A DNA stretch of 32,842 bases, from positions 1 through 32,842 of the forward strand of contig JAKOQZ010000088.1 in the NCBI GenBank assembly GCA_029778105.1, written 5' to 3'. The notes beneath the pieces are model-generated. The model was given only the letters and a program-made list of their open reading frames with translations, made no database searches and was not told where the DNA came from. Source of the DNA: Pseudomonadota bacterium. Lineage in GTDB: Bacteria; Pseudomonadota; Alphaproteobacteria; Micropepsales; Micropepsaceae. Shown piece after piece: positions 11,660 through 18,627 of this stretch; position 1 is the first letter of the stretch, and every line of letters begins with the position of its first letter. The position numbers and the translations under genes were made by a program.

Positions 11660-11674
11660 GTCAATTAAGTTGAT
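11660..11674. promoter_or_regulatory. Putative MarR operator, site C
   Basis: GTCAATTAAGTTGAT is upstream of the CoA-transferase gene. Its inner 13 bases are the reverse complement of site B at 6506-6520. The TAA stop of the lasso B2 gene (11665-11667, minus strand) lies within it. Confidence 0.62.
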
Positions 11675-12123
11675 GATATCGTTTCGGGTGCCTGCGCCGG
11701 AAATGTTGCCAGCAGGGCGAAGGACGACGCGAGTTCGGTACCCAGAACATCAAGCTCGCCGCAACGCACCCATACATGGGCCGACAACGGCTTGTCCTGC
11801 GTCGCCGGAGCGACGCCATAGAACATGGTCGAATCGACGCCGCGGCGCCGGAGCATAAGCTGCGCCGTAAGCCCTTGCTCGATGCACATGGCGCGCAACG
11901 GACTGCGTTTGGCCGCCGCCATGACCGCCCATCTGACCTGACGGATGATTTCGTCGCGGTCGGCCGTGCTTGCAACGGTGCGCCGCAGCTTCCTCGAAGC
12001 GAGGCGGCCGACATGGCGAAACGGAATGACGCGGATAGCCGGCGCAGCCATCACGACGAGCAGCATCGACTCGATCAGGAGCCTCGCTTCGCGCCATGAC
12101 AGGCTTCGCCAGGATCTCGCCAT
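11665..12123 (-). CDS. Lasso peptide biosynthesis B2 protein (leader peptidase)
   Basis: This 152-aa protein matches the transglutaminase-like B2 protein of lasso-peptide clusters, the cysteine protease that removes the leader from the precursor. The expected catalytic triad is visible: Cys80 in CIEQGLTAQLMLRRRGV, His116 in AHVWVR and Asp125 in LDVLG. The N-terminal part is basic and helical, as in relatives. It begins six bases after the methyltransferase stop and is the last gene of the minus-strand lasso operon. B1 (RRE) is encoded separately at 15163, so this is a split-B system, unlike the fused B protein of many proteobacterial clusters. Its stop codon lies inside the putative operator of the next gene. 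Confidence 0.9.
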   Translation of the reverse strand: MARSWRSLSWREARLLIESMLLVVMAAPAIRVIPFRHVGRLASRKLRRTVASTADRDEIIRQVRWAVMAAAKRSPLRAMCIEQGLTAQLMLRRRGVDSTMFYGVAPATQDKPLSAHVWVRCGELDVLGTELASSFALLATFPAQAPETISST

Positions 12124-12129
12124 GACGCG

Positions 12130-13173
12130 CTAACGCCTCTCCAGCCAGAACCAGGTGCTTTGACCGTCATGTCGACCGCCGGCCTCGATGGCTTGACCGG
12201 GCACGGTGTCGATCGGCGTCACCCCATGGAATTCCAGACCGAAGGCATGCGCCGTCTCGTCGAGCGTGTCGTAGACGATCCCATGGCCAAGATGGAACCG
12301 GACCCACTGGATAAGCCCGTCGACCTGACCGCCTGATGCAGTCAGCGATACGGCGCCCCGCTCCGGCGGGTAGGAGCCCGACTGAAAGTCGAAGTCGAAG
12401 ATGGTCCGGCTCTCGCTCCGCAGCGCCACGCTCGGCTGCTGTTTGGTATAGCCGCTGGGTGCGAAGCGATTGAACGCCGAGAGATCGAACCCGTCGACGA
12501 TCATCATCTGGCGGTTTTCCGGCTTCAGGTCGTGCGCCAGCGCGAGCATGATCTCCGCGCGCGACGGGATGAAAGGCGCGGCCGGCACAGCCAGACGGCG
12601 CTTCGCATCGTCGACGGCCTTGGTCGCACCCTGGGCGATGAGATTGTTGGCGAGATTATCCCAAATCACCACATCCGCCGGACCTTGCATGTCGACGCCG
12701 AGCTGCAGATCGGTCGAAAGCTTGGCGACCACCTTGACCCGGTCCGAAAGTCCGTTCGCCGCCACGGTGTCGCGCACGGCGTCTGCAATCGCCGGATTCT
12801 GCTCGCAGGCGATGACTTCATCCGCGCCGCAGCGCGCCGCAAGCATCGCGAACAGCCCTGTGCCGGCGCCGATATCGAGAACGCGGCCGCCTTTCACAAG
12901 CGCCGCCTTGAGCGCGCGTTCGTAGAGCGCGTGCCGGTTCACGTCCTGCACCATCGTGAAATACCAGGAACCGATCCCGTGGCCGATCACGCTCCTGGCG
13001 AGCGCGGCAAGTTCTGGATCGTGCGGCGAGGCCGCCAGCACCCGCTCGCAGACCTCGCGCGCCTCCCGCTCCCGCCCTTTGGCCAGCAGGAATGTGCGCG
13101 CGAAGTTCAGGAGCGCAACGGGATTGCCCTCCAGCCTCGACAGCAGCAGATCGGTCGTGTCGTCAGACGTCAT
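12130..13173 (-). CDS. PRMT-fold SAM-dependent methyltransferase in the lasso cluster
   Basis: This 347-aa protein is a class I SAM-dependent methyltransferase with the overall pattern of protein arginine methyltransferases. A TPR-like helical N-terminus (1-60) precedes SAM motif I VLDIGAGTGLFAML (98-111) and an acidic ligand at Glu124. The PRMT-like beta-barrel part begins near PFIPSRAEIML. The double-E loop of true PRMTs is not evident: the region reads IWDNLANN (170-177) where SExxG would be expected. It sits between cyclase and B2 genes with gaps of 12 and 6 bases, so it is an integral lasso-operon gene. The predicted peptide core has no Arg or Lys, so methylation of a carboxylate, amide or terminus is more likely than of Arg. 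The target is inferred. Confidence 0.8.
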   Translation of the reverse strand: MTSDDTTDLLLSRLEGNPVALLNFARTFLLAKGREREAREVCERVLAASPHDPELAALARSVIGHGIGSWYFTMVQDVNRHALYERALKAALVKGGRVLDIGAGTGLFAMLAARCGADEVIACEQNPAIADAVRDTVAANGLSDRVKVVAKLSTDLQLGVDMQGPADVVIWDNLANNLIAQGATKAVDDAKRRLAVPAAPFIPSRAEIMLALAHDLKPENRQMMIVDGFDLSAFNRFAPSGYTKQQPSVALRSESRTIFDFDFQSGSYPPERGAVSLTASGGQVDGLIQWVRFHLGHGIVYDTLDETAHAFGLEFHGVTPIDTVPGQAIEAGGRHDGQSTWFWLERR

Positions 13174-13185
13174 AAGGGCCCGGCT

Positions 13186-15111
13186 TCAATGGTTGCTGCC
13201 TGTGACTTTTCGAATGAACTGAGCCGCTGAAACGGCATCGAGAAATGCGTATCGGTATTCTGCCATGACCTCGTCCGACACGTCCTGCGCCGGCCAGTCT
13301 TCGATGAGCTTGCGCAGTCTCGGCACGTCGAACAGCTCATTGGTCAGGCTCATCGCCTCGATCCGGTCGACTTCGGCGCTCAGACGAGGCTTGATCTGGG
13401 TCAGGAGGTCGAGCCAGTCGGCGCCCTGATAGCCGCGGCGCGTTTCCGACAGCACAGCCGCCGGCACCCTGTCGGCCAGCACATGCCTGATGAGCGCCCG
13501 TGGTTCGCCATCAAAGCTGTAGTGTTCGCTGGGAATGCGCAGGGTGAACTCGACAAGCCGCCTGTCTGCGGTCGGGTCGCGGTAATCGATGCCCCAGCGC
13601 GAGAGCATCCCCTTCCTGTAAGCGCCATTGTCGCCGGAAAGCAGGCATAGCCGCGCATCCACGCCCCTCTTGGGCGTGTAATGAGTCTGCTCGGTATGGC
13701 GGCGGCCGAGGATATCGGTGACGCCGTTGTCCGCACGCAGCCATTGCCGGCGCAGCGCCGAATAGCGCGCGGCGTCGATGGGCAGCCGCCCGGCCGCGCG
13801 CCGCCCTTTCCGCCAGAGCTTGAGGGGCAGCCAGGGCGCCACCGAGTTCCAGACGGCGCCGCGCCACCGTGTCTTGCCGCGGCGGCGCTGCGCGTTCGCC
13901 GCCCTGAACCAGGCGATCACACGCCCCTGCGCCAGCAGCTCTGGCAGAACGGCCATGCCGTGGTAGCTGATCGTCGCATTGCCCGCATCGCCGGTGAGGA
14001 TCACGCCCAGGCCGCGCGCCTTGGCCTCCGCAGCGACCGCTTCTTCCGCGAGCAGCGGAAACGGATTGCGCAGCGGTTCGCCGAAGGCGATCGCATAGCG
14101 CTCGGAAGCGGCGATCGCATCGCCCGATGCGCTCACCAGCACATGATCCATATTGTCATGCATGGCGGCGGTCATCGCAGCCGCCGGTCCCTCGTCGCAG
14201 ATGACATCGGGAGAAAGCGCCGGATCGTATTTCCCACGGGGCACCACGGTCAGGGCGACCACGCGCCTGCCCGTCTTCGACAGCGCGATGGCCGCCGTGC
14301 TGGCGACGGCCGAACTGTCGAAGCCCGCGCTCAGATGGGCGCCGACTCCCCGCTCGGCGCCCCGCAGGGCCGCCTCCACTGCATTGCCGAGGCGCTCGCG
14401 CAATTCCACAACAAGGGAGGCGTGGCTTCGAGGCGGCAACGGCGTCAGGTCCGGCTGCCAATAGCGCACGGCCTGCGCGCGCCCGTCGCTCAGCCTCACG
14501 ATATGCCCGGGCGGAACGCGCCTGACATCGCTGTAGGGCGACGCGCCGGCGTCATCGGCAAGCGTCAACAGCCGCAGCAGATCATCCCTGTCGAGTGCTC
14601 GGGACGCTTCACCAAGGGCGACCAGACCCTCGGGCATCGAGGCGAACGCCGCGCGGTCCGGCGAGACGGAATAATATAGCGGACGCTCCCCGAGCGGATC
14701 GCGGGCCAGCAGAAGGTGCTGCTCGACCGCGTCCCATATCGCGATTGCGAACGGACCGTAGATGCGCGCGATCGCGTCTTCGCCCCAACGCTCGACAGCC
14801 GCCGCGACGACGGCGAGATCGCTCATGCGCGGAGCCGCTGCGCCCAGTCCGATGTCGGCGATGAAGCTGTCGCGTTCGGTCAGACGCACATCGCCGACGA
14901 TCAGGTACCGGCCACCGCCGCACCGATAGGGCTGCGCGTCGAACGCGTCCTCGGGAACGAGAGTGGTCAGGCGACAGCCCATCGATGCGCCGCCAAGGCT
15001 CGCCTGCCGCGGCTCCGCCAGTCCATAGGCCGTCAGGGCGACCAGCATGTCCGCGGTGTCTCGCGCGGTGCACGCGGCGTCCTGACGATAGCTGCCGCAG
15101 ATCGCCGTCAC
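13186..15111 (-). CDS. Lasso peptide cyclase C (asparagine synthetase-like)
   Basis: This 641-aa protein is an asparagine-synthetase-B homologue acting as lasso cyclase: it adenylates the side-chain carboxylate of an Asp/Glu in the core and joins it to the new N-terminus while folding the tail through the ring. The ATP-pyrophosphatase motif is SAGFDSS (Ser261 to Ser267). The N-terminal glutaminase-like domain lacks the Cys2 nucleophile (it begins M-T-A-I-C), as is usual for lasso cyclases that do not need glutamine. The start is GTG at 15111, preceded by a weak ribosome site. It lies 51 bases after B1 and 12 bases before the methyltransferase. The insert rich in Arg and Trp (about 400-440) is within normal variation. 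Confidence 0.93.
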   Translation of the reverse strand: MTAICGSYRQDAACTARDTADMLVALTAYGLAEPRQASLGGASMGCRLTTLVPEDAFDAQPYRCGGGRYLIVGDVRLTERDSFIADIGLGAAAPRMSDLAVVAAAVERWGEDAIARIYGPFAIAIWDAVEQHLLLARDPLGERPLYYSVSPDRAAFASMPEGLVALGEASRALDRDDLLRLLTLADDAGASPYSDVRRVPPGHIVRLSDGRAQAVRYWQPDLTPLPPRSHASLVVELRERLGNAVEAALRGAERGVGAHLSAGFDSSAVASTAAIALSKTGRRVVALTVVPRGKYDPALSPDVICDEGPAAAMTAAMHDNMDHVLVSASGDAIAASERYAIAFGEPLRNPFPLLAEEAVAAEAKARGLGVILTGDAGNATISYHGMAVLPELLAQGRVIAWFRAANAQRRRGKTRWRGAVWNSVAPWLPLKLWRKGRRAAGRLPIDAARYSALRRQWLRADNGVTDILGRRHTEQTHYTPKRGVDARLCLLSGDNGAYRKGMLSRWGIDYRDPTADRRLVEFTLRIPSEHYSFDGEPRALIRHVLADRVPAAVLSETRRGYQGADWLDLLTQIKPRLSAEVDRIEAMSLTNELFDVPRLRKLIEDWPAQDVSDEVMAEYRYAFLDAVSAAQFIRKVTGSNH

Positions 15112-15162
15112 GCCTGGCCGCCCTGCGCTGGCTCGCTCAAACGCGCTTCCCCTGCCCGTCCT

Positions 15163-15444
15163 CTAGCCGGCGACCAGAAGCAGGCCTTCTCTGCTCAGGT
15201 CTTCGAGCAATGCCTGTGTCTGGGCTTGGCACTCCGGCAGGCTGACCTCGTATTCGCTCACCAGCTGCGCGCAGATCTCACCGACGGTGAGAGGCGCGGC
15301 GAGCAAATCCCAGATTCGGGTGCCGACGGCGTTCAGGCCGTAGCAAACGCCCTTGTTCACATCGAGCGCGACGGTCTGCCCGTCGACCTGGGCGGAAATC
15401 GCCGCGCCAGAGCGCCCGACACGGGATGACAGGGTCAGGACCAT
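15163..15444 (-). CDS. Lasso peptide B1 protein (PqqD-like RRE)
   Basis: This 93-aa protein is a PqqD-family RiPP recognition element (RRE), the part that binds the precursor leader and presents it to the B2 protease and cyclase. Typical features are two short N-terminal strands, the signature VNKGVCYGLNAVGTRIWDLL (29-48) and the helical domain LTVGEICAQLVSEYEV. The length is usual for stand-alone lasso B1 proteins. It follows the precursor gene after an 82-base gap holding a terminator hairpin, and precedes the cyclase by 51 bases. The start ATG at 15444 has only a weak GGTAA ribosome site. Confidence 0.92.
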   Translation of the reverse strand: MVLTLSSRVGRSGAAISAQVDGQTVALDVNKGVCYGLNAVGTRIWDLLAAPLTVGEICAQLVSEYEVSLPECQAQTQALLEDLSREGLLLVAG

Positions 15445-15463
15445 GAATGACTGTTACCTTGCA

Positions 15464-15503
15464 CAACAAAGAAAAGGCGTCGCCGAACCATGTCAGCGAC
15501 GCC
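15464..15503 (-). terminator. Intercistronic terminator/attenuator between lasso A and B1
   Basis: On the minus strand, GGCGTCGC (15503-15496) and GCGACGCC (15483-15476) form a perfect 8-bp stem with a 12-base loop, followed by TTTTCTTTGTT. Located just after the precursor gene, it probably lets the precursor be made in excess over the B1-C-M-B2 genes through partial read-through. Confidence 0.8.
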
Positions 15504-15526
15504 AAACGATGCGACCGATCTGACGT

Positions 15527-15679
15527 TCAGGACGTCATCATGCCGTTATCGCCGGTTCCGCCGCCGATCATCTCGACGGCCATGCCGGGACCGGCTTCGG
15601 CCCGGACGGCGTCCATGCGCACAAGAACCGGACGCTCCCAAACGGCGCGCGGGGCGCGATCTTCAAGGACTTTTTCCAC
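15527..15679 (-). CDS. Lasso peptide precursor A (50 aa, GTG start)
   Basis: This gene encodes a 50-residue precursor. The start is GTG at 15679, preceded by TTGGAGGGATC; the frame stays open upstream to 15775 but without a ribosome site. The leader (1-28) carries the RRE-binding pattern WERPVLV, with Trp14, Pro17 and Leu19 in the Y/W-x2-P-x-L arrangement of lasso leaders. The predicted core (29-50, 22 residues) begins AGPG, contains AVEMIGGG and ends GMMTS. From Trp to AGPG is 15 residues, the same spacing I recall for the paeninodin precursor, whose core also starts AGPG. Ring closure would be Ala1 to Glu8 (8 residues); Gly2 to Glu8 (7) is an alternative. The C-terminal Ser is the expected phosphorylation site of the adjacent kinase. 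The leader -2 residue is Ala, not the usual Thr. Confidence 0.83.
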   Translation of the reverse strand: MEKVLEDRAPRAVWERPVLVRMDAVRAEAGPGMAVEMIGGGTGDNGMMTS

Positions 15680-15756
15680 GATCCCTCCAACAAAAACCCA
15701 AACCTCCGACATCAGAGGCCAGCCAATGGCAAGACCGTCATGTAGAGTTCCAGCGA

Positions 15757-15808
15757 GTCCGGAGTCTACGGACACTGCGTGATAAATTTACCTTAAAACT
15801 GAAAAAAG
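15757..15808 (-). promoter_or_regulatory. AT-rich putative promoter/leader region of lasso A
   Basis: The stretch 15781-15808 is strongly AT-rich in an otherwise GC-rich region and lies between the kinase stop and the precursor start. It could carry a separate promoter for precursor A, but no confident -35/-10 pair was found. A small inverted repeat, GTCCG/CGGAC (15757-15761 and 15769-15773), would lie in its 5' untranslated region. Confidence 0.35.
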
Positions 15809-15822
15809 TGTGCGCCGCAGCA

Positions 15823-16743
15823 TCACGGCTGTTCGGTCATGGCGTCCATGTGCCTCACCAGCGCGGCAGCAGAAGCCTCAAAGTGCTCAAATCCGGCGGG
15901 CCTTGAAAAGGCAAAGACTGGGACCTGCTGCGCCAATCGGGCGGCGGTCTCGAAGTAAACCCGCGACTCTCCGGCCATATCCGCAAATTGACGGCGATAG
16001 ATATTCTGCACGATGACCGCCACGGCTTGCGCACCTTCCAGCCGCTCGATGGCCGTTTCGCCGTTTTCCGCCAACCGCAACCAGTAGATCGCCCCGACGC
16101 AAAAGGAGCCCGAGGCAAGTTGACTTAGCGGTATCTCGAACTTGTCATCCATCCAGCTGACAGGCCTCAGCCCGTCCGATGTCTGCCCGAACGCGTGCAG
16201 CGCGTCGCGCCACAGCTTCATCCTGGGGATGCCCGCGTGAGCCTTCAAACCCTGCGTGGTTTGCTCGATGGCCAACAGATCGTCGGTGAGCAGCGGCAGA
16301 CCGGCCCGCGAGAAATAGGCGGCGAGGGTCGACTTGCCGGCCCCGGAATCGCCGCACACGGCGAAGGCGGCGTTGCCGCGGACAACGCAATTGGCGTGCA
16401 GTGGAAGCAGCCGGCGCTGGTAAAGAAGAACTGCGACGCAGGTGCCGAGCAGATAGGCTTCGGTCTGGTCCGCCGTCGCGCCCGGCCACGGCCGCACCTC
16501 CATCACCGATCCGGCGGCGATGCGGAAAACACCTGATTCCGGAATCTCCAGAACCGCCGCATCAGCGGAGATCTCGACGAACATTTCATCGATCGCGACG
16601 GGCCCGCGCGGTGAGGGCACATCGCCCAGGCAGATATCGACGTCCCAGCGCTCGCTCACCGGAAGACGCCGGGGCTCCAGCGCGTGAACAGGAAACGCAG
16701 ACCGAAAAACCAGCCCGAAGGCGGCATAGAAAAATTGCGTCAT
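15823..16743 (-). CDS. HPr kinase-like lasso peptide kinase
   Basis: This 306-aa protein belongs to the HPr-kinase-like family found in some lasso clusters, where characterised members (ThcoK, PadeK) phosphorylate the C-terminal Ser of the precursor peptide. It has LPLHANCV (114-121, a conserved His), P-loop GDSGAGKST (131-139) and LLTDD (151-155) for Mg2+. It is not a true HPr kinase, as it lacks the N-terminal domain and the conserved CA-loop context. It follows the ABC gene by 36 bases and precedes the precursor, whose last residue is Ser, in agreement with this role. CGGGTC/GACCCG (16744-16749 and 16759-16764) forms an inverted repeat directly before the start; its meaning is unknown. Confidence 0.88.
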   Translation of the reverse strand: MTQFFYAAFGLVFRSAFPVHALEPRRLPVSERWDVDICLGDVPSPRGPVAIDEMFVEISADAAVLEIPESGVFRIAAGSVMEVRPWPGATADQTEAYLLGTCVAVLLYQRRLLPLHANCVVRGNAAFAVCGDSGAGKSTLAAYFSRAGLPLLTDDLLAIEQTTQGLKAHAGIPRMKLWRDALHAFGQTSDGLRPVSWMDDKFEIPLSQLASGSFCVGAIYWLRLAENGETAIERLEGAQAVAVIVQNIYRRQFADMAGESRVYFETAARLAQQVPVFAFSRPAGFEHFEASAAALVRHMDAMTEQP

Positions 16744-16779
16744 CGGGTCAGTCCGCTCGACCCGAAAGGGCTTGGGCCA

Positions 16780-18627
16780 TCAGATAGAGCCCTCCAGGTC
16801 GGACTTGCTGATCGCCACCAGCTGCTCGCGAAGCGACGCGTAGCTTCCGCGCCGCACGATCCGCCCCTCGCCAAGGATGCAGATCTCGTCACAGAATCGC
16901 AGACTTTCGGCGCGATGCGCGATCAGAATGATCGTCAGCTCAGGGCGCAGCGCGTTGAGCCGCTCGAGAATTTTGCTCTCGCGCCCAACATCGATCGCAT
17001 TCGTCGCTTCGTCCAGGATCAGCAGGCGCGGGCGTCGGATCAGGGCGCGGGCGAGCGCGATCATCTGCCGCTCTCCGCCCGAGACCAAAGCGCCTCGCTC
17101 GCCGACGACCGTCTCCAGACCGTTCGGCAGACGATTCACGACCTCACCCGCGCCCGAAACCTCCAGCGCCTCCGCGATCTCGCGCGCGCTCGCCCCCGGA
17201 TGCGACCAGAGCAGGTTCTCCTTTACCGTGTCGTTCAGCAGAAAGGCGTCCTGCGCGACATAGCTCAGATGATCGCGCCAGGCGGGGCGTTCCGTCAGGT
17301 TGACCTCCGCGCCGCCGACAAGGATGCGGCCCGATTGCGGGGCGTGGAGGCCGACGATCAGATCCGCCAGTGTGGTTTTGCCGCCGCCGGAAGCGCCGGC
17401 CAGCCCGATGAAGCCACCCTTCGCAATGGAAAGGCTGACGTCGGCAATGCCGGCCTGGCGGCTCTCCGGCGTGTCCGAACCCGGGTGGATATAGTGAACC
17501 TGCTCAAGGCGGATATCCTGAAACGCCAGAGGCGAGGGATCTGCCGCGATGGTGCGCGTCTGAAGTTCGGCCACAAGGCCGTCCAGCGTGCGCACGGCAG
17601 GCAACGTCCGCACAAGATTCAGCAGATGAGAGTGAAGCTGCAGGGCGGGTCCGCTCAGGCGGGAAATGATCACGATGAATGTCAGCAGCACCGCCGCCGG
17701 CACCTTGGCATAGGCGACCCCGAAGGTTGCGATGGCCGCGACGGTCAGTGTGCCCAAAACCGTCAGGACGAAGCGGACCCTGTTCTGCTCGGCGACGAAC
17801 CCGATCTCCGCCACCAGCATCCTGTCCAGTGAACGGCCGAATTGAGAGACGAACGAGGTCTGCAGATTCTGGCTCATGGCGAGTTTCATGGCGCCGAGGA
17901 ACTGCGTCACATCGTTGAGCAGCGACAGATGGGCGTCGTTGGTGAACTCGCCCAACCGTCGCGCCCGTTGCAGCAGGCCACGGGCGATCAGCGCGCTCAC
18001 CCCCAGCAGGACGAAAGCCAGCAGCGACAGCGCCGCATCGAGATAGAGCGAGATCGCGGCATAAACGGCGATGGCCATGACGGCGACGCAGGACTCCACC
18101 AGGCCGACCGCAGCCTGCCCCACGCGATAGATCTCGGTCCCCAGCAGATGGAGAATGCGGGAATGGCGCACGCCGGCGATGCTGCCCCAACCCGCCCTGC
18201 CGAGAAGACCGATCACCGTCTTCTGTCGATCGATCAGATAGGAGGACTCGATCTCGGCGAGGAGGATTTGCCGCGATGCCAGCAAAGCGCCCCGCGCAAT
18301 CATGGCCACGACGAATAATCCGACGATTCCGGCGAGCATGCCGCCGGCCGTCGTCAATCCGACAAGCTCGAAACCTTCGCTGACGGCTCGCGTAAGACGG
18401 CTTGGCGTTGCCGTCTCCCCGGAAATTTCCAGCAGCGGAACGAGAAGGATCAGCCCCAGTCCCTCGCTGAGGGTCGCAAGAACGACGAGCAGCACCGCAC
18501 GCGCCGCCCTGCCCCGCGCAAAGCCGGCGAAGCTGCGAGCGAAGGCGAATATCTCAGCCAGAAGTTGGCCGGTCGGCGACCTAGCGCGCAAGAAGCGACC
18601 CTGATTGCGGTGCGCCGGCGCATCCAT
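16780..18627 (-). CDS. ABC transporter, TMD-NBD fusion (lasso exporter D)
   Basis: This 615-aa protein is a half-type ABC exporter with the membrane domain (six helices, about 35-330) joined to an ATPase domain. Walker A is GASGGGKTT (about 410-418), the signature LVSGGERQMIALARAL is followed by Walker B LLILDEATNAID and the H-loop LIAHR. It very likely exports the finished lasso peptide and provides self-immunity, as D proteins do. It is the first gene of the minus-strand operon. I chose the ATG at 18627, though its ribosome site is weak; an in-frame TTG at 18744 would add 39 residues that look non-coding. No lasso isopeptidase gene accompanies it. Confidence 0.9.
   Translation of the reverse strand: MDAPAHRNQGRFLRARSPTGQLLAEIFAFARSFAGFARGRAARAVLLVVLATLSEGLGLILLVPLLEISGETATPSRLTRAVSEGFELVGLTTAGGMLAGIVGLFVVAMIARGALLASRQILLAEIESSYLIDRQKTVIGLLGRAGWGSIAGVRHSRILHLLGTEIYRVGQAAVGLVESCVAVMAIAVYAAISLYLDAALSLLAFVLLGVSALIARGLLQRARRLGEFTNDAHLSLLNDVTQFLGAMKLAMSQNLQTSFVSQFGRSLDRMLVAEIGFVAEQNRVRFVLTVLGTLTVAAIATFGVAYAKVPAAVLLTFIVIISRLSGPALQLHSHLLNLVRTLPAVRTLDGLVAELQTRTIAADPSPLAFQDIRLEQVHYIHPGSDTPESRQAGIADVSLSIAKGGFIGLAGASGGGKTTLADLIVGLHAPQSGRILVGGAEVNLTERPAWRDHLSYVAQDAFLLNDTVKENLLWSHPGASAREIAEALEVSGAGEVVNRLPNGLETVVGERGALVSGGERQMIALARALIRRPRLLILDEATNAIDVGRESKILERLNALRPELTIILIAHRAESLRFCDEICILGEGRIVRRGSYASLREQLVAISKSDLEGSI

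Follow-up and report, generated by a model that had tools for sequence, protein, structure and literature searches.

A lasso-peptide gene cluster from a member of the Micropepsaceae that combines a predicted precursor kinase with a PRMT-like methyltransferase

We have analysed a stretch of 32,842 nucleotides (the window) from a Pseudomonadota bacterium of the alphaproteobacterial family Micropepsaceae (GenBank assembly GCA_029778105.1, contig JAKOQZ010000088.1), which represents the whole contig of a draft genome that is 89% complete with 3.8% contamination, and we describe here a group of 7 minus-strand genes at 11665-18627 that would specify a lasso peptide tailored by both phosphorylation and methylation. 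All 7 reading frames are open and uninterrupted, and the order of transcription is D, K, A, B1, C, MT, B2. Only 6-51 bp separate D from K, B1 from C, C from MT and MT from B2, larger spacers being confined to the surroundings of A, and the 7 genes therefore look like one operon. The initial annotation of this DNA had proposed a complete lasso cluster of 7 minus-strand genes, and that proposal held, with every frame open, the order as described and family matches for the core genes. The features are listed below.

16780-18627, minus strand: D, ABC exporter with membrane domain and ATPase, 615 aa (Pfam ABC_tran, 3.6e-30)
15823-16743, minus strand: K, putative kinase of the HPrK/PEPCK superfamily (motif, family profile, AlphaFold2 model with Foldseek)
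15527-15679, minus strand: A, precursor of 50 aa, MEKVLEDRAPRAVWERPVLVRMDAVRAE / AGPGMAVEMIGGGTGDNGMMTS (GTG start with GGAGG ahead)
15476-15503, minus strand: terminator-like hairpin between A and B1 (11 pairs, then TTTTCTTT)
15163-15444, minus strand: B1, PqqD-like leader-binding protein, or RiPP recognition element (RRE) (PF05402, 7e-18; NF033536, 4e-18)
13186-15111, minus strand: C, lasso macrolactam synthetase, Asn-synthetase-like (PF00733, 5e-24; NF033535, 2e-55)
12130-13173, minus strand: MT, TPR-like N-terminus and PRMT-like methyltransferase dependent on S-adenosylmethionine (SAM) (PRMT7 best match in sequence and fold)
11665-12123, minus strand: B2, leader peptidase, transglutaminase-like (NF033537, 1e-22; PF13471, 1e-18)

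Core proteins, kinase and precursor

B2 scored 80.8 bits against the lasso_biosyn_B2 family NF033537, for which the cut-off is 33, and retains the catalytic Cys and His. The top NCBIfam match of C was the lasso cyclase family NF033535, at 188 bits against a cut-off of 525 bits; the Pfam domains Asn_synthase and GATase_7 were both above cut-off, and the ATP loop, LSAGFDSS, is conserved. A search of plasmids gave no close relative of this cyclase (best identity, 36%). B1 matched the solved lasso RREs in the PDB, namely the lasso PqqD chaperone 9x90 (8e-11) and TbiB1 (2e-9). The reading frame of D runs up to 18744, with an ATG start at 18627, and its translation contains a Walker A sequence, GLAGASGGGKTT, the signature VSGGERQ and a Walker B sequence, LLILDEA. 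As regards membership among lasso clusters, then, B2, C, a B1/RRE protein and a precursor of the YxxPxL type were all found.

K contains the motif H...GxxGxGKS...DD (H116; GDSGAGKS at 131-138, including K137; D154-D155), which is conserved with 10 cluster kinases and whose His-Lys-Asp-Asp residues have been shown to be necessary in lasso kinases (PMC9266682, PMC10368454). No Pfam family matched K above threshold and a search of the PDB with the single sequence gave no matches, whereas a profile of the K family identified HPr kinase 1jb1 as the best PDB entry (4.9e-6). With an AlphaFold2 model of K (confidence score, pLDDT, of 88), Foldseek placed PEP carboxykinase first (3e-9) and HPr kinase at 6e-6, so that, of the two, PEP carboxykinase appears to be the nearer to K, as modelled, in overall fold. 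HPr kinase and PEP carboxykinase are members of one superfamily. The original designation of K as HPr-kinase-like is therefore correct as to superfamily and best profile match, but not as to the nearest predicted fold. The related expectation, that B2, C and the kinase would fall within lasso families, was confirmed for B2 by its score, for C by its best match, albeit under the cut-off, and for K by its retained motif.

The most likely start of A is the GTG at 15679, with GGAGG directly ahead of it, and the product would consist of the leader and core given above. The leader contains WERPVL, a paeninodin-like WxxPxL element with W at position -15, and ends with Ala(-2) and Glu(-1), Thr(-2) being absent. 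The core, which is devoid of Arg, Lys and His, starts with AGPG (as does the paeninodin core), could form a ring between A1 and E8, the Glu lying in the 7-9 range, and ends with MMTS. Its C-terminal Ser is the residue phosphorylated by lasso kinases of this type, and by analogy K is expected to act there. Resemblance of the kinase, the split B proteins and the precursor to the paeninodin group, also claimed at the outset, was borne out except that the leader has Ala instead of Thr at -2.

Directly to the 3' side of A, at 15503-15476, lies the hairpin. It folds modestly better than shuffled sequences (z = -1.98) and terminator-like matches in the region were not more numerous than in shuffles, so that its position is the main argument for a function. 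The hairpin is a probable attenuator, which would yield precursor mRNA in excess of the enzyme transcripts. As a separate observation, three genomes from the window's family encode precursors (L083:7766-7918, L084:8215-8364 and L086:7820-8068) that share one identical predicted core, TGIQFGPEILILLS, with a putative Thr1-Glu8 ring, and that differ in part in their leaders.

A methyltransferase of PRMT7-like descent with an altered substrate loop

In a phmmer comparison of MT with all PDB chains, PRMT7 was the best match (2e-22), followed by PRMT9 and other protein arginine methyltransferases (PRMTs), and with the predicted structure (pLDDT 76) Foldseek also returned PRMT7 first (5.8e-23), although MT and PRMT7 are only about 20% identical. 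A reading of MT as a genuine L11 methyltransferase was rejected since PRMT7 is by far the better match; a Tistrella relative of MT is annotated "50S ribosomal protein L11 methyltransferase", a label for which sequence comparison gave no support. Assignments to the PIMT (protein isoaspartyl methyltransferase) or lassomycin-type enzymes likewise lacked family support and were rejected: no O-methyltransferase family was among the Pfam matches, a weak match to PF01135 covered the Rossmann region only, and no PIMT was among the PDB matches listed, by sequence or by fold.

The guanidinium of the substrate is clamped in PRMTs by a pair of glutamates in the double-E loop, which are E172 and E181 in TbPRMT7 (PMC8226133, PMC12153873, PMC9469100). 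Opposite them, the window enzyme has D172 and Q181, the former within the sequence WDNLANN at 171-177. The same loop, WDNL[A/G]NN, was observed in 6 of 6 enzymes of the clade described below, in which the first Glu has become Asp and the second either Gln or Ala; of 34 comparison enzymes, 33 have retained the first Glu. All 6 are also changed at four near-invariant positions (H71Y, N81H, L108F and W311F), and yet the SAM-binding elements are intact in the clade, including motif I, VLDIGAG[TS]G (VLDIGAGTG in the window), E124, D77 and R80. At the position of the THW loop MT has Q289-W290, and TbPRMT7 likewise has Gln there, Q329 (PMC8226133). The ratio of nonsynonymous to synonymous substitution (dN/dS) was 0.05-0.20 for the closest pairs, which points to purifying selection, and a new substrate would account better for the pattern in the clade than decay would. 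We take these sequence comparisons to indicate a clade of PRMT7-like descent that has probably lost the guanidinium clamp and gained the WDNL[A/G]NN loop. Since both catalytic glutamates are absent and the window core has no Arg, the term PRMT would here denote fold and ancestry and not arginine methylation; the initial annotation was right about the PRMT fold and the position between C and B2, but the activity that the name implies probably does not carry over.

Relatives of MT recur beside lasso genes. In Novosphingobium sp. 18050 (locus L126) the order K-A-B1-C-MT-B2 is identical to that of the window, and a search of 196 Novosphingobium genomes added L176, L177 and L178, with the same 6 genes in that order, as well as L179, which lies at the end of a contig and has B1-C-MT-B2; the L176-L179 enzymes are 52-97% identical to that of L126. 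Five Novosphingobium genomes therefore have the C-MT-B2 order, 4 of them with the full K-A-B1-C-MT-B2 arrangement, and the nearest of their enzymes shares 47-48% identity with the one in the window. Chance adjacency of MT was rejected, as the C-MT-B2 order is found in 6 genomes. L126, L176, L177 and L178 contain relatives of every gene of the cluster except D, which, among loci with the matching C-MT-B2 order, is present in the window only; the search for clusters of the same 7 genes thus succeeded for 6 of them. In place of D, three of these loci (L126:5337-6230, L176:4183-5076 and L177:13739-14617) encode, directly upstream of the kinase, a product of about 295 aa in which an HxD...H pattern suggests a possible 2-oxoglutarate oxygenase; the copies tested gave no match in Pfam or NCBIfam.

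A scan of genome contigs for the gene pattern gave 5 loci, and the closer relatives came from the genus-level searches. In the window's family (96 genomes), the neighbourhoods of 20 relatives of C of the lasso cyclase type were examined; most have a kinase close by, and the methyltransferase was absent from all 20. Elsewhere in the family, relatives of MT adjoin a lasso kinase and B1, with a cyclase at L034 and without C or B2 at L032 and L127. Other kinase-lasso loci with such relatives are L128, L129, L148, L149 and L153, and at L150 only a kinase is nearby. At 7 kinase-lasso loci outside the clade the relatives retain the double-E glutamates. A class-wide sample of 385 genomes contained no additional close relative, and plasmids had weak relatives only, the best of which, on Tistrella pTM2, is without lasso genes in its vicinity. 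Two of the loci merit separate description. L034:5000-15300 has a nucleotidyltransferase (NTP_transf_5), a 2OG-Fe(II) oxygenase, a double-E PRMT-like methyltransferase, a cyclase, two kinases and B1. L127:8489-11035 has a kinase, B1 and a double-E methyltransferase together, C and B2 being absent within the region examined, and may represent a remnant, or else a kinase/RRE/methyltransferase trio put to a use other than lasso synthesis.

In a tree of 40 enzymes, from which the loop columns were left out, the 6 WDNL[A/G]NN enzymes formed one clade (support 100/98), with the lasso-linked double-E enzyme of L148 as its sister (98/92). For 14 of the 40, a lasso kinase, a cyclase or B1/B2 is encoded nearby, and lasso-linked rows were more clustered than in shuffles. 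The association of these methyltransferases with lasso genes is real, rare and recurrent. The combination of kinase and PRMT-like methyltransferase, initially thought unusual, is accordingly rare but not unique, given the 5 Novosphingobium genomes and the further kinase-lasso loci.

The proposed pathway and the target of methylation

In the pathway that we propose, B1 would bind the WERPVL leader, K would phosphorylate the C-terminal Ser22 on the linear precursor, and MT, with SAM as donor, would methylate a site other than arginine, most likely in the C-terminal region (M-x-S-COOH); B2 would cut after Glu(-1), C would join Ala1 and Glu8 into a ring with the tail threaded through it, and export would fall to D. 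Monoisotopic masses calculated for such products are 2021.831 Da for the cyclised core, 2101.798 Da with a phosphate and 2115.813 Da with a phosphate and a methyl group ([M+2H]2+ 1058.914). The steps assigned to B1, B2, C, K and D rest on established family knowledge, and both tailoring steps are ones that we infer. Taking the sequence evidence together, we put at about 0.72 the probability that these genes are a complete operon for the biosynthesis of a lasso peptide with two modifications, phosphorylation and methylation.

That MT acts on the peptide we consider probable. Precursors homologous to A occupy the matching position in L126, L176, L177 and L178, and because a C-terminal M-x-S is common to all 5 known clade precursors (and absent from each of the 19 other distinct precursors of kinase-lasso loci) while their ring sequences differ strongly, the C-terminus is our favoured target. 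It is a tentative choice, somewhat short of even odds and drawn from few related sequences. Perhaps the methyl group would form an O-methyl ester with either the C-terminal carboxylate or the phosphoserine; for a C-terminal methyl ester there is precedent in lassomycin-type clusters (PMC9266682). The broader idea, that the PRMT-derived WDNL[A/G]NN subfamily left arginine chemistry for RiPP tailoring and O-methylates the C-terminus or phosphoserine of lasso precursors, is doubtful, and we would sooner bet against it than for it.

As a separate observation on the same family of precursors, those of L126:7319-7471, L176:6163-6315 and L177:12509-12745 have Asp10, counted from the conserved AE| boundary, as the sole acidic core residue, which would imply either a 10-residue ring, outside the usual 7-9, or cleavage 1-2 residues later.

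Several points weigh against the assignments made above. C lies below NCBIfam's strict lasso cut-off, and the leader is without Thr(-2), although this residue is no strict requirement, Ile(-2) having been validated and Ile, Val or Ala(-2) predicted (PMC10368454). The MT model has moderate confidence overall and low confidence in two segments that may bind the substrate, residues 66-76 and 220-245. The shared M-x-S end may reflect descent instead of function. Finally, the L126, L176 and L177 cores have Arg near the C-terminus, and Arg was found in 5 of 9 cores from methyltransferase-bearing clusters against 0 of 14 from clusters without one (Fisher p = 0.004, relatedness ignored); beyond the window, at least, this would agree with a PRMT-like role.

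The last of these points, together with the PRMT7-like ancestry of MT, could mean that the enzyme is still an arginine methyltransferase, directed at a core Arg (as in the Novosphingobium sequence PRRMMGS) or at the leader Arg of (V/I)RM, which is invariant in 5 of 5 clade precursors, in which case the enzyme of the window would have its leader or some other protein as substrate. Yet the glutamates corresponding to E172 and E181 of TbPRMT7 (PMC8226133) are replaced in 6 of 6 clade enzymes, Arg is absent from the window and L178 cores (as are Lys and His), and a modification of the leader would leave with the leader. Arginine methylation of the window core is unlikely because there is no Arg in it, and we regard these possibilities, even jointly, as unlikely; arginine methylation is plausible for the double-E group and may apply to the Novosphingobium members of the clade. 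In this connection, the precursors at L149:10045-10209 (core GISYRIGDGISNLT) and L153:10272-10469 (core GISYRPSDGLSNLTA) lie beside double-E methyltransferases and both have Arg5 in the ring; from their sequences they are candidates for true arginine methylation.

It also seems improbable to us that MT is a catalytically dead scaffold, comparable to the TbPRMT3 prozyme, which holds the precursor, C and B2 together. Loss of the double-E glutamates goes with loss of activity in TbPRMT3 (PMC8226133), and the TPR-like N-terminus and the constant location between C and B2 would suit such a role; but motif I, the acidic ribose-binding E124, and D77 and R80 are retained, the replacement residues are invariant, as would better fit new chemistry than decay, and dN/dS is low. 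Methylation of an Asp/isoAsp-type site (D16-N17-G18) leading to an aspartimide, as in lihuanodin and cellulonodin-2, is very improbable: the window core does contain a deamidation-prone DNG, lasso clusters with a PIMT are already known (PMC9266682) and PF01135 matches weakly, but the best relatives of MT are PRMTs, with PIMTs missing from the matches listed, and DNG is absent from the other clade precursors.

Genomic setting and comparison with known systems

One flank of the cluster has genes for a CaiB-type CoA transferase, an HMG-CoA lyase-like protein and a TonB receptor, and the other has YgaP-like, ArsR and, identified by eye, a rhodanese-like open reading frame and an RND-type efflux protein; these flanking genes look unrelated to the lasso operon. 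A genome of the same genus (G011) has relatives of the flanking genes at 68-81% identity, those of the CoA transferase and RND genes together on one contig, and a search of it found neither a lasso cyclase nor a close MT relative, from which we conclude that the contig is native and the lasso cluster accessory. Contamination of this metagenome-assembled contig is, for the same identities and linkage, unlikely. GC content gave no island signature at the cluster, and no long repeats were found across the region.

Kinase-type lasso clusters are known already, as are methyltransferases in a few lasso clusters. Like the window, the phosphorylated lasso clusters, that of paeninodin among them (kinases PadeK, ThcoK, SyanK, PsmK, BsfK), have split B1/B2, C, D, a kinase with H...GxxGxGKS...DD, a C-terminal Ser and W or Y at -15; the window differs by its extra PRMT-like MT between C and B2, by Ala(-2) and Glu(-1) in the leader, and by E8 instead of D9 as the ring acid. 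The methyl-ester systems of lassomycin (LasF) and StspM share with it a SAM methyltransferase in a lasso cluster and, as proposed here, a C-terminal target, whereas MT is PRMT-like without an O-methyltransferase match and no kinase is described for those clusters. For StspM, from which MT is set apart by description only, mitomycin-7-O-methyltransferase served as the template of the model, and the catalytic pair there is His/Glu (PMC9266682). The methyltransferases of the aspartimide systems (LihM of lihuanodin, and cellulonodin-2), also encoded in lasso clusters, are PIMT homologues that act on a conserved ring Asp6 (PMC9266682), unlike MT. PRMT7, the closest solved relative by sequence and fold, has, in the case of TbPRMT7, Gln in the THW loop as MT does, but differs in both double-E residues and in overall sequence (only about 20% identity), and the precursor core here offers no Arg.

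The report on metanodin describes soil-metagenome lasso clusters in which the B gene is split and which have "phospho- or methyltransferases, where present"; a single cluster, from the other architecture group, was expressed (PMC12670498). The open literature, subscription papers being mostly outside its scope, gave us no description of a PRMT-like enzyme in lasso clusters and nothing relevant on lasso peptides with an L11 methyltransferase or in Novosphingobium. New here is the replacement of both double-E glutamates throughout a lasso-linked clade that keeps its SAM motifs.

If the WDNL[A/G]NN enzymes do O-methylate the C-terminus or the phosphoserine, the products would be phosphate-methyl or phospho/methyl-ester lasso peptides, a type for which we found no description in open papers. 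The L11 methyltransferase label, as on the Tistrella relative, would hide such enzymes from genome mining, and the clade could yield a tool for peptide methylation. With intact double-E enzymes in some kinase-lasso loci and the clamp-replaced clade in others, these loci constitute a natural experiment, and comparison of the 2 groups would reveal how the scaffold of an arginine methyltransferase comes to serve another substrate.

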